Under the pieces are notes generated by a model. It was not told where the DNA came from. It was given only the letters and a program-made list of their open reading frames with translations, and did no database searches. Position numbers and translations under genes: made by a program. Positions 49,609 through 54,186 of a stretch of DNA of 64,000 bases are shown piece after piece (positions within the stretch are counted from its first letter, which is position 1; every line of letters begins with the position of its first letter). This DNA comes from Hyphomonas sp. (GTDB taxonomy: Bacteria > Pseudomonadota > Alphaproteobacteria > Caulobacterales > Hyphomonadaceae): the NCBI GenBank assembly GCA_016124495.1, contig WGNP01000001.1:62001-126000 (forward strand), in the 5' to 3' direction.

Positions 49609-50622
49609 ATGTCCAGCCGAACGCGCCTTGAGGACCTCGCCTCCATCGCGGGCGTCTCGATCGCGACGGTGTCGCGCGCGCTCAACAACAGCCCCGCTGT
49701 CAATGATGAAACCAAGCGCCGCGTCTGGAAGATTGCGCGCGAGCAGAACTATCATTTCCGGCCGTCGATGCCCGCCCTTCTGTCTGGTGCGTCGGCGACG
49801 ATTGCCGTCGTCATCCCCAATCCGCACGCCCGCCAGAGCGAAGCGTTGCATCCCTTCGTGCAGGACTTCATCGGCGGCATTACCGAGGCAGCGCGCGTTT
49901 CGGGTTGCGACCTGTTGATCTCCCATCTTGCGCCCGGGAATGTGGATGACCTTTCCGAACTGATGACTTCCAGCCATGCGGACGGCATCATCTTTCTCGG
50001 CCAGAGATTGCTGCACGACCGGCTGAACGCGCTGGCGCAGGGCGAGAGCCGGTTCATCGTCTGGGGTGCTGACCTGCCCGGCCAGAAGTATTGCTCGGTC
50101 GGCTCCGACAACCTGCGCGGCGGGGCGCGGGCGACATCGCACCTCATCAATCTCGGCCGGCGCCGGATTGCCTTTCTGGGTGACACCGCCGCGCCGGAAG
50201 TGCAGCATCGGTATGAAGGCTATGTCGAGGCGCACCGGCGCGCCAACCTGGCCGTTGATCCCGCCCTGATTGTGCCGGCGCAGTTCGAGATCAGCTATGC
50301 CGAAGCGGCGGCCGATGGTCTGCTGGCGCGCCGTGCCGCGTTCGACGGGATCTTCGCGGCGAGTGACCTGATCGCCCTCGGCGCCTTGCGCAGCCTGCAG
50401 AAGGCGGGCCGCTCGGTGCCGCAGGAAGTAGCCATTGTCGGCTATGACAATATTCAGGTGGCCGCCTATACGCAGCCCGCGCTGACGACGATCGACCAGG
50501 ACATGAGCAAAGCCGGGCGCCTGATGGTGTCGAAATTGCTCGCGGCAACCGAGAAGGCGCCGCTGCGGTCCGAACGTCTGCCAGCGGACCTGATCGTGCG
50601 GGAATCCTGCGGGCTGGGCTAG
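49609..50622 (+). CDS. LacI/GalR-family transcriptional regulator
   Basis: DNA-binding repressor with a sugar-responsive domain. The protein is 337 residues from the ATG at 49609 (a TTG nine bases upstream is less likely). The N-terminal helix-turn-helix is TRLEDLASIAGVSIATVSRA followed by LNNSPAVNDETKRRV, the LacI signature. The hinge is short, and residues from about 60 form the periplasmic-binding-protein-like domain (FDGIFAASDLIALGALRSLQ, VAIVGYDNIQVAAYTQPALT). It is divergent from zwf-pgl-edd-glk and convergent with the alpha-glucosidase gene, so both are plausible targets. The inducer cannot be read from the sequence. Confidence 0.92.
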   Translation: MSSRTRLEDLASIAGVSIATVSRALNNSPAVNDETKRRVWKIAREQNYHFRPSMPALLSGASATIAVVIPNPHARQSEALHPFVQDFIGGITEAARVSGCDLLISHLAPGNVDDLSELMTSSHADGIIFLGQRLLHDRLNALAQGESRFIVWGADLPGQKYCSVGSDNLRGGARATSHLINLGRRRIAFLGDTAAPEVQHRYEGYVEAHRRANLAVDPALIVPAQFEISYAEAAADGLLARRAAFDGIFAASDLIALGALRSLQKAGRSVPQEVAIVGYDNIQVAAYTQPALTTIDQDMSKAGRLMVSKLLAATEKAPLRSERLPADLIVRESCGLG

Positions 50623-52229
50623 AGCCGCCCGATCCAGACGCCGTGCCGCGGAAGGGTCTTGACGACCGGTGCACTCGAAATCAGCGGTTTCGCCCCGGCG
50701 GTCAGGTCCTGGGGAACGGCTACATCCTCCGTACCTAGATTGAAGAGGCAGAGGACCGTTTCGCCGCCCAGTGTTCGCCGAAGGGCGAGCAATGGGTCCG
50801 GTATCTCCGGAAAATCCACTTCGCCTAAGCGCAGGGCGGCAGACCCGGCGCGCAATTTCACCATAGCGCGGGTGAAATTCAAAACGGAGCCCGGATCACT
50901 TTCCTGCTCCGCCGCTGCAAGCTCAGCATGCCCCTGCCCGACCGGGAGCCAGGGTTTGGATTCTGAGAAACCTGCGAAGGTATTACCCTTCGTCCAGGGC
51001 ATCGGTGTGCGGGCGCCGTCGCGGCCAAGGGTGCGCGGCCAGTTGGCGATGGCTTCGGGATCCTGCAGGTCTTCGAAGGCCACTCGTGCTTGCGGCAGGC
51101 CAAGCTCCTCGCCCTGATAAAGGATCGGATTGCCGCGCAGGCAGAGCAGCAGCGCGTTCGTCAGCTTGGCAAACTGCGCCAGGTCAGCGCCCGGCGGGCA
51201 CCAGCGGCTGACGCAGCGCGGGGCGTCATGGTTCGAGAAGGCCCAGGAAGGCCAGCCTTCGCTGAAGGGGCCCGCCCAGTTCATCTGCGAGGCTTTCACG
51301 CGGCGCGGCGAGAGTCTGTTCGCATACAGAAAGTCGAAACTGTAGGCCGAGCTGAGGCGATTGTCCCCGGCCGTAAAGGCACGCATCTCCGGCAGCGGAT
51401 CAGGCCCAGGCACTTCGGCGACCGTGAAGATCGCTCCATAGCCGTTCGCCAGTTCGCGAATGCGTTCCATGAAGACCGGGATGTCCGGGTGGGACTGGTT
51501 GTGGATATGGTGCTGCAGGTCAAAGGGCCGGGTGATCGTGCGACTGCCTGCCGGCCAGGGCGGATTGTCCCGGAAGTCCGGATCGAACATCGCGAAGTTG
51601 ATCGCGTCGAGGCGGAAGCCATCAACGCCCTTGTCGAGCCAGAACTTCGCGGCAGCCACCAGCGCGTCCTGAACCTGCCGGTTGTGGACGTTCAGCTGTG
51701 GCTGGGTCGAGAGGAAATTGTGCATGTAGTATTGCTGGCGGCGCGCATCCCAGGTCCAGGCAGGGCCGCCGAAGACGGACTGCCAGTTGTTCGGCGGGGT
51801 ACCATCAGGCTTCGGGTCTCTCCAGACATACCAGTCAGCATACGGATTATCCCGCGACCCGCGGCTCTGGGCGAACCAGTCATGCGCGTCGGAGGTGTGG
51901 GCATAGACCTGATCAATGATGACCTTCAGGCCGAGGCGATGGGCCTCTGCCAGCAAGGCGTCAAAGTCCCCCAGCGTGCCGAAGATCGGATCAACATCGC
52001 AATAGTCCGATACGTCGTAGCCGAAATCGCTCATCGGCGACTTGAAGAAGGGGGATATCCAGACCGCTTCCACGCCGAGGGCGGCGACATAGGGAAGCTT
52101 CCGGGTGATCCCCGGCAGATCGCCGATCCCGTCCCCGTTGGTGTCGAGATAGGAGCGCGGGTAGATCTGGTAAATCACGGCGCCGCGCCACCAGGGCTGG
52201 CAGACTTCGGGAGAAGACGGGTTTTCCAG
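50619..52229 (-). CDS. GH13 alpha-glucosidase, probable CTG start
   Basis: Alpha-amylase-family hydrolase releasing glucose from alpha-glucosides such as isomaltose or maltose. GH13 regions: YAHTSDAHDWF (region I), GVDGFRLDAINFAM (region II, nucleophile Asp), VAEVPG (region III, acid Glu) and FSNHDAPR (region IV). No canonical start lies upstream of the conserved PWWRGAVIYQIYPRS. A GTG at 52178 would remove PWWRGA, whereas a CTG at 52229 has AGGAG exactly eight bases upstream and keeps it (536 residues). The next codon upstream but one is a stop. No secretion signal is seen, so it is probably cytoplasmic. Its stop shares CTAG with the regulator's stop. Confidence 0.9.
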   Translation of the reverse strand: MENPSSPEVCQPWWRGAVIYQIYPRSYLDTNGDGIGDLPGITRKLPYVAALGVEAVWISPFFKSPMSDFGYDVSDYCDVDPIFGTLGDFDALLAEAHRLGLKVIIDQVYAHTSDAHDWFAQSRGSRDNPYADWYVWRDPKPDGTPPNNWQSVFGGPAWTWDARRQQYYMHNFLSTQPQLNVHNRQVQDALVAAAKFWLDKGVDGFRLDAINFAMFDPDFRDNPPWPAGSRTITRPFDLQHHIHNQSHPDIPVFMERIRELANGYGAIFTVAEVPGPDPLPEMRAFTAGDNRLSSAYSFDFLYANRLSPRRVKASQMNWAGPFSEGWPSWAFSNHDAPRCVSRWCPPGADLAQFAKLTNALLLCLRGNPILYQGEELGLPQARVAFEDLQDPEAIANWPRTLGRDGARTPMPWTKGNTFAGFSESKPWLPVGQGHAELAAAEQESDPGSVLNFTRAMVKLRAGSAALRLGEVDFPEIPDPLLALRRTLGGETVLCLFNLGTEDVAVPQDLTAGAKPLISSAPVVKTLPRHGVWIGRL

Positions 52230-52273
52230 CGGTCACGCTCCTGAGCAGGCGGGTTCGCCGGATTTGTCTGGCC

Positions 52274-52349
52274 TGGCAGGGGCAGAGGGACTCGAACCCA
52301 CGACCTGCGGTTTTGGAGACCGCCACTCTACCAACTGAGCTATACCCCT
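52274..52349 (-). tRNA. trnW: tRNA-Trp (CCA anticodon)
   Basis: A 76-base cloverleaf with a 7-bp acceptor stem (AGGGGTA with TGCCCCT, one G-U pair). The anticodon stem GCGGT/ACCGC encloses loop CTCCAAA with anticodon CCA, and the T-loop is GGTTCGAGTCC. The 3' CCA is encoded. In many proteobacteria tRNA-Trp precedes secE-nusG; here the alpha-glucosidase gene follows instead. Confidence 0.96.
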
Positions 52350-52726
52350 TCAGGCCTGACCGGGGTTTGCCTCAACTCCCGCCTGGCTGCAAGACCGGGG
52401 GTGAAAAGACTTTGGCCCGGGCAGTTCGACCGGCCGGAGGCGCCTTTGGGGCGGCCGGTCTTTCGGCACCGGCGCGGCCGTTCTGAAGGGAGCGTCCGGG
52501 GGCGAAAGGGACATTTTACCCGATCCGGGCGCCTGCCTTCGCAGGCTCCATCGGGGCGGGTGTTGATTGGCCAGGCCCTCACCTCCTACCGCCTTTGGCG
52601 GCGGGCCAGCTCGGGGCGATTGCAGCCCCTCCCGGACGGAGACGGTTTAAGGGAGGGCTCTCCAGCTGCTCGCCCATGATAGGGGAAGCAAGGGGTTTGA
52701 GGTTTGGAACTTTGTTGTGTGATCAT

Positions 52727-52777
52727 GCCCGGCACATACCTCCGTGGGCGGAGGTGTAGCAGAAGAACTGGCCGGGC
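52727..52777. other. Nested inverted repeat, possible structured RNA
   Basis: Outer arms GCCCGGC (52727-52733) and GCCGGGC (52771-52777) enclose a strong inner hairpin, ACCTCCG (52738-52744) and CGGAGGT (52749-52755) with a four-base loop. Two concentric helices of seven pairs each are unlikely by chance in 51 bases. No match to SRP RNA, tmRNA or RNase P RNA core motifs was seen. Confidence 0.35.
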
Positions 52778-52876
52778 AACTTAAAACGGCCTGAGGGTGC
52801 TTTAATCAGGTTTTCGGGCGGGGTGTTTCGCAGGCGCAGTTGCGTGCACCACCCTGCCCTGACACTTGAAATCCTG

Positions 52877-52893
52877 ATGCAGGCAGCCTGCAT
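52877..52893. repeat. Palindrome ATGCAGGC-a-GCCTGCAT
   Basis: Perfect eight-base arms around one central base. A related palindrome, GCCTGCATGCAGGC, lies at 102-115, and the GCCTGC/GCAGGC arm pair also forms the hairpin at 52531-52546. It could be a binding site or a scattered repeat. Confidence 0.4.
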
Positions 52894-52983
52894 GTAATGC
52901 CGAATACCTCTCAGACATTCTCATTCATTCTCGTTTTTGACACCTGGTGCCGGCTTATCATCGACCTGTATCGCCCCTCGGCG

Positions 52984-54186
52984 TCAGACGATTCCACTGG
53001 CGCGGAGCTTGTCGACCTGCTCCGGCGTCAGGTTCAGGAGTTCGGTGAGGACTTCTTCCGTGTGCGAACCAATCTGCGTAGGACCCGCCCAGCGGATGTT
53101 GCCGGGGGTGGCGGAGAGTTTGGGGAAGACGTTCTGCTGTTTCAGCCCCGGCCATGTTTCGCTCGGCACTTCGGTGAGGGACTCGCGGGCGATGTAGTGC
53201 GGGTCGCTCAGCATATCGGCGGCGCGGTAGACTTTGCCGACGGGCACGCCGTTTGCGATCATCGTGCGTTCGATCTCGTCGATGCTGCGAGAGGCCGTCC
53301 AGAGCTGGATCAGGTCGTCGAGGGCTTTCTGGTTCATGCCGCGCGCGACATGGGTCTTGTAGGCGGGATCATCTTTCAGGGCGGGCTGGCCTATGGCGTC
53401 GCAGAGGCGGGCAAAGACAGTGTCCTGATTGGCGGCGATGATCACCATGCCGTCCGAGCCGGTATAGATGTTCGACGGCGCGATGTTCGGCAGGATCGAG
53501 CCGGAGCGTTCGCGGGTATAGCCCTCGAACTGGTATTCCGGGACGAGGGCTTCCATCACCGAGAGCACAGACTCATAGATGGTTGCGTCGATCATCTGGC
53601 CTTCGCCGGTCTTTTCGCGGTGGTGCAGCGCGGCGAGCGCGCCGAGGGCTGCGTAGAGGCCGGCGAGGCTGTCACCCAGTGAGATGCCCGCCCGGGAGGG
53701 CACGCGGTCGGCTTCGCCCATGACATAGCGCAGGCCGCCCATAGCTTCGCCGACAGAAGCGTAGCCGGCACGCGTGGCATAGGGGCCGGTCTGCCCGTAT
53801 CCGGAGACGCGGATCATGATCAGGCGCGGATTGATTTTTTTCAGGGCGTTGTAGCCGAGGCCCCATTTTTCCAGTGTGCCAGGGCGGAAATTCTCGAGCA
53901 GGAAATCGGCCTGCGCAACGAGCTGGCGGACGATGTCCTGCCCTTCGGCCTCGCGCAGGTTTGCAGTTATGCATCGCTTGCCGCGGGCAACCACCGACCA
54001 CCAGAGCGGAAAGCCGTCGCGGCCCCACTCGCGCAACGGGTCGCCCTGTCCGGGTGGCTCGACCTTTATGACGTCGGCGCCCATGTCGGCGAAGATCTGG
54101 CCACAGAAAGGACCTGCGATAAGCTGGCCGAGTTCGATGACGCGCAGGTCCGTCAGCGGACCTGTGCGGGGGGGCGGCGGGACCAT
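52984..54186 (-). CDS. Class III (CaiB/BaiF-type) CoA-transferase
   Basis: Transfers CoA between carboxylic acids; family members include formyl-CoA, carnitine and succinyl-CoA-dependent transferases. The ATG at 54186, with AGGAAG eight bases upstream, gives 400 residues. Start region: LTDLRVIELGQLIAGPFCGQ and MGADVIKVEPPGQGDPLREW. The catalytic Asp is probably that in ISLGDSLAGLYAALGALAAL. The C-terminal part has GVPVGKVYRAADMLSDPHYI, as in the family. Specificity cannot be deduced; a link with the acyl-CoA synthetase gene 4 kb away is only positional. Confidence 0.9.
   Translation of the reverse strand: MVPPPPRTGPLTDLRVIELGQLIAGPFCGQIFADMGADVIKVEPPGQGDPLREWGRDGFPLWWSVVARGKRCITANLREAEGQDIVRQLVAQADFLLENFRPGTLEKWGLGYNALKKINPRLIMIRVSGYGQTGPYATRAGYASVGEAMGGLRYVMGEADRVPSRAGISLGDSLAGLYAALGALAALHHREKTGEGQMIDATIYESVLSVMEALVPEYQFEGYTRERSGSILPNIAPSNIYTGSDGMVIIAANQDTVFARLCDAIGQPALKDDPAYKTHVARGMNQKALDDLIQLWTASRSIDEIERTMIANGVPVGKVYRAADMLSDPHYIARESLTEVPSETWPGLKQQNVFPKLSATPGNIRWAGPTQIGSHTEEVLTELLNLTPEQVDKLRASGIV

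Follow-up and report, generated by a model that had tools for sequence, protein, structure and literature searches.

A probable CTG start codon, shared with sister genomes, in the GH13 alpha-glucosidase gene of a Hyphomonas species

Introduction

Where does translation of a gene begin when no canonical start codon precedes the first conserved residues of its product? The question is raised by an alpha-glucosidase gene of Hyphomonas sp., located within a window of 64,000 nucleotides (the whole stretch of DNA that was analyzed). In the initial annotation it was pointed out that the PWWRGA segment is encoded upstream of the first in-frame GTG (52178) and that no ATG, GTG or TTG lies between this segment and the upstream stop, which was confirmed when the codons were read one by one. 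A CTG codon at 52229 had been proposed as the start, with a one-base deletion behind an upstream GTG as the alternative. The relevant features, all on the minus strand, are:

50619..52229, minus strand: coding sequence of the GH13 alpha-glucosidase as read from the CTG (536 amino acids, first residue fMet, stop codon within the coordinates)
52176..52178, minus strand: first in-frame canonical codon, a GTG within the conserved first strand
52227..52229, minus strand: putative CTG start codon, with no other near-cognate codon from the in-frame TGA up to the second W of PWWRGA
52233..52235, minus strand: in-frame TGA, which shuts the frame one codon before the CTG
52234..52236, minus strand: out-of-frame GTG, 1 nt from the AGGAG and implausible as a start
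52238..52242, minus strand: Shine-Dalgarno (SD) sequence AGGAG, exactly 8 nt upstream of the CTG
52230..52273, minus strand: spacer between tRNA-Trp and CTG, 44 nt, containing the SD
52274..52349, minus strand: tRNA-Trp (CCA), found by ARAGORN and as Rfam RF00005, its end separated from the CTG by 44 nt

The protein and its putative start site

The frame runs from stop to stop between 52232 and 50619 on the minus strand. The encoded protein matched PF00128 with an E-value of 1.2e-117 and 394.4 bits, the Pfam cut-off being 22. The nearest solved structure is that of the alpha-glucosidase QsGH13 (PDB 7voh, E 9.7e-215), which could be aligned from PWW to residue 505 of the 537 of the query, and both 7voh and 6aav start to align at PWW. 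The protein contains the stretches GFRLDAINF, FTVAEVPG and FSNHDAPR, aligned to closely similar stretches of 7voh, and these we take to be the conserved regions around the catalytic residues of GH13 alpha-glucosidases. We identified the protein as an alpha-glucosidase considering that its nearest relatives of solved structure are alpha-glucosidases. None of the best 25 of the 35 NCBIfam matches reached the equivalog cut-off, the highest score being that of NF051899 (690.7 bits vs 900).

On the minus strand the codons from the upstream stop onwards read TGA CCG CTG GAA AAC CCG TCT TCT CCC GAA GTC TGC CAG CCC TGG TGG CGC GGC GCC GTG. ATG, GTG and TTG are all missing in frame from the TGA to the second W of PWWRGA, and CTG 52229 is the single codon in this interval that is one mismatch away from ATG. 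The AGGAG at 52242-52238 precedes it by exactly 8 bases, as had been stated before, and the 16S 3' tail that carries the anti-SD, GGATCACCTCCTTT, occurs once in this genome. To obtain a background, internal in-frame CTGs were collected from 36 long, non-overlapping ORFs of the window, which were selected on length and not verified as genes. AGGAG was found 5-10 nt before 2 of these 702 codons and 8 nt before none; when every CTG trinucleotide of either strand of the window was counted (2641), it preceded three of them by 8 nt, the candidate included. Judged by these counts, the AGGAG-8 nt-CTG arrangement is taken to be more than chance.

We consider it very likely that the gene encodes an intact GH13 alpha-glucosidase translated from CTG 52229. 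The AGGAG would then pair with the anti-SD of the 16S rRNA and the 8-nt spacing would place the 30S subunit at the CTG, where the CUG would be read by the initiator fMet-tRNA despite the mismatch at the first position. The resulting N-terminus would be fMet-Glu-Asn-Pro, with (M)ENPSSPEVCQPWWR as the predicted start peptide. We infer initiation at the CUG, as well as its efficiency, from the arrangement of these elements. All 64 codons have reportedly been studied as start codons by Hecht et al.

Start codons within the genus

The gene was present in 40 of the 42 genomes of the window's genus that were searched. Each genome entered the comparison of 5' ends with its best match, so that a 60% paralogue (G016) and the weak second matches of G021 and G027 were set aside; these ends showed a nearby in-frame ATG in 32 genomes, TTG in three and CTG in five. 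In the ATG genomes an in-frame ATG lies at most 60 nt upstream of the second W of PWW. The TTG was found at -54 from that residue (G001, G010 and G022) and the CTG at -39 (this genome, G011, G024, G062 and G014). All eight CTG and TTG genomes have a GGAG-type SD 8 nt before this codon; the five with CTG have AGGAG, G001 and G010 have GGGAG, and G022 has CGGAG. In a DNA alignment of 14 chosen rows the CTG and the TTG share one column; the CTG thus occupies the position of the TTG of the sisters and would represent an ordinary start site whose first base is C instead of T. The preference for CTG in the initial annotation is thereby strengthened, by four further genomes with AGGAG-8 nt-CTG and by three in which an SD precedes a TTG that falls into this column. 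What had been named as evidence against it, an in-frame ATG or GTG at the same point in sisters together with an indel, is absent from all seven closest genomes. More distant Hyphomonas have ATG starts, mostly nearer to PWW, and in G021 an in-frame ATG is aligned to the CTG/TTG column, which fits a start site at this position and not an indel. Four ATG-using rows (L007, L009, L010 and L012) have a TTG in this column as well; the one in L007 was checked and lies out of the frame of the gene, so that part of the T/C-T-G column may predate its role as a start.

The in-frame TGA upstream of the CTG is common to this genome, G011, G024 and G062, and in all four the stretch from the TGA to the second W is free of canonical codons. 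The CTG is the only near-cognate codon before the second W in G024 too, and G011 and G062 have one more, a second CTG. The start assignments for G014 (CTG) and G022 (TTG) were made by judgement. G014 lacks the TGA and its frame is open further upstream, with a GTG at -99 (no SD seen) and one at -186 (inside tRNA-Trp), and it may conceivably use an upstream canonical start instead of the CTG. G022 has an ATG at -129 and a GTG at -99 further upstream.

A scan for relatives with one genome per species recovered 136, of which 80 were kept. The two nearest, at 92% and 90% identity, are metagenome-assembled genomes (MAGs) titled as other phyla; among the 22 that follow, with 82% to 66% identity, 18 are titled Hyphomonas or Hyphomonadaceae, and many of the remoter ones are Mesorhizobium. 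Three records titled Acidobacteria bacterium or Candidatus Sulfopaludibacter, namely L041 (LNFC01000014.1), L042 (CAMDAC010000004.1) and L046 (CAMEDD010000022.1), contain the Hyphomonas gene at 81-92% identity and are probably mislabelled MAG records.

Other explanations for the missing canonical start

The GTG at 52178 is the earliest canonical codon in frame, and the protein could start there without PWWRGA. We regard this as very unlikely, given that in the four other CTG genomes the equivalent codon is GTC or GTT. The next canonical codons of these sisters are located 39 or 52 codons beyond the second W, and starts at those positions would mean the loss of PWWRGA and the first strand. Moreover, GTG 52178 sits in the conserved strand GAVIYQIYPRSY, which is aligned from PWW in both 7voh and 6aav, and 32 of the 40 gene-carrying genomes have their in-frame ATG upstream of PWW.

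Recoding in front of the CTG is highly improbable. A programmed +1 frameshift could be imagined from the upstream GTG, or from a TTG in G014, as both lie 7 nt before the CTG and create a short overlapping frame. Both codons are nevertheless only 1 nt from the SD, which is too close; no shared slippery run was seen, and a start codon at the 7-nt offset is missing from all three TTG sisters. Read-through of the in-frame TGA would require translation of most of tRNA-Trp, since the sole upstream canonical codons lie within it, and G014 has no such TGA.

The absence of a canonical start could also indicate that the start codon was lost and that the gene is becoming a pseudogene. The chance of this is very slim considering that dN/dS is about 0.1 and that the frame has stayed intact over a dS of up to about 1 in the five CTG genomes (for G011 a fragment of 236 codons).

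Least probable, to the point of being negligible, is an assembly error in which an indel after the out-of-frame GTG, 7 nt upstream of the CTG, conceals a normal GTG start: this GTG, which begins at 52236 and not at 52237 as initially annotated, is only 1 nt from the SD, and the stretch from AGGAG through CTG GAA AAC is identical in this assembly, G011, G024 and G062, four separate assemblies, which argues against a read error. The same stretch is found in the public records L041 (probably identical to G062) and L042 (likely not independent of G024). The proposed one-base deletion was therefore rejected, all the more because with the 7-nt offset the frame would become intact on removing one base or adding two: a single base missing from the assembly does not explain this, and one extra or two missing bases would fit.

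Selection and history of the start site

Purifying selection acts on the gene body, with pairwise dN/dS values of 0.06-0.14 among nine genomes (G011 as the 236-codon fragment). Between this genome and G014 dS amounts to 1.00, and the gene body is free of frameshifts and stops among the CTG genomes. Among the four close genomes 0-1 differences were counted in the SD-bearing 44-nt spacer, 1-9 in the 33 bases following the CTG and 17-38 in a 300-base stretch that starts at the second W. In the 11 codons between the CTG and the first W of PWW, this genome and G011 differ at 6 of the 33 bases and 4 of the 11 residues, and the protein sequence of this tail shows no sign of purifying selection. The near-invariance of the spacer and the variability of the tail indicate that the ribosome-binding stretch is conserved, whereas the short N-terminal tail can vary freely and lends no support at the codon level.

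A species tree was made from three genes and 19 genomes; these genes were not found in the G011 assembly and only part of them is available for G001. The tree recovered the CTG group at 100/100 (SH-aLRT/bootstrap), the TTG group likewise at 100/100, and joined both with G014 at 99.9/100; the position of G014 outside the two had a value of only 79.4/82. The gene trees placed G011 with this genome (92/81 for protein, 100/97 for DNA) and left the place of G014 unresolved. If G014 does fall outside the CTG and TTG groups, this faintly hints at CTG as the older state, from which TTG would be derived.

Upstream region and a possible role of a weak start

Scans of 52100-52990 for promoters (of the sigma-70 type only) and for terminators gave no hits, and considering this the alpha-glucosidase mRNA may arise by read-through from tRNA-Trp transcription. 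A tRNA-Trp near the glucosidase gene was seen at 19 of the 38 scanned loci besides the window, where some loci stop too early to tell. At 17 of the 19 it lies within about 0.25 kb upstream; at L007 and L038 it is about 1.3 kb away, with an ORF on the opposite strand in between.

Predicted RNA folding places the CTG in a stem both here and in the three nearest sisters, with a mean unpaired probability of 0.01-0.05 against 0.40-0.46 for the SD. In G014 the values are 0.43 for the CTG and 0.02 for the SD, which is paired, and in the three TTG genomes they are 0.43-0.84 for the start and 0.21-0.38 for the SD. The predicted pairing, of the CTG in four of the five CTG genomes and of the SD in the fifth, speaks against the reading of CTG as the start.

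With the CTG as start, it is conceivable, if rather unlikely, that CTG is the older state of the start site in the clade and was kept across species as a brake, combining a weak CUG or UUG, a strong SD and an mRNA that is read through from the tRNA. A weak start behind a strong SD on a strong and constant read-through mRNA would then yield a low and steady enzyme level.

Relation to known CTG starts

In Caulobacter crescentus, CTG accounts for 0.7% of the mapped starts according to the available part of Schrader et al. 2014 (PMC4117421), which agrees with the earlier remark that starts other than AUG, GUG and UUG are rare. The genes concerned are likewise alphaproteobacterial protein genes started at CTG. 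Ribosome profiling and LC-MS were used to map these starts, each taken as the most upstream footprinted candidate codon, whereas the putative CTG start of Hyphomonas was recognized by sequence comparison and has a strong SD. An SD was present at just 24.6% of the Caulobacter starts in the same source, and is thus unnecessary for starts in this group. The accessible text of Belinky et al. 2017 (PMC5622118) gives one switch from UUG to CUG for 2,468 ancestral UUG starts in closely related genomes. The codon pair is the same as that of the Hyphomonas TTG and CTG sisters; unlike that switch, the CTG here is found in the genomes of five species and may be the older state. What was available of PMC11497404 and PMC7566282 had no effect on the reading of the CTG start, and within the portions of the literature covered by the search there was no report of this gene or of a Hyphomonas CTG start. 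CTG starts were thus already known, as a rarity, from related bacteria, to which the comparison of genomes adds the Hyphomonas gene as a further, well-supported and conserved case.

Gene callers that are limited to ATG, GTG and TTG would shorten or miss the alpha-glucosidase gene, and alignment of SD and spacing across a genus offers a cheap route to likely CTG starts. The natural series of ATG, TTG and CTG at a single gene may further serve to gauge the drift of start codons and to see if weak ones are retained purposely.

Additional observations

A special initiator tRNA for the CTG was also considered; the patterns used on 10 genomes showed nothing CTG-specific. The pattern G-N-G / C-N-C around CTCATAA had no match in any of the 10. 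A second pattern recovered one identical initiator-like stretch, with A-T instead of G-C at the outer pair of the anticodon stem, in three of the 10 (L179, L180 and L181, from G016 and G061 with ATG starts and G010 with a TTG start). It was not found in the seven other genomes of this search, including four CTG genomes, and our guess is that an assembly gap accounts for this.

Finally, the contig breaks off within some 0.15-1 kb upstream of the gene in 13 genomes out of the 40 (L003, L004, L006, L009, L010, L011, L022, L024, L030, L034, L035, L036 and L178), a pattern that would fit a repeat close by.
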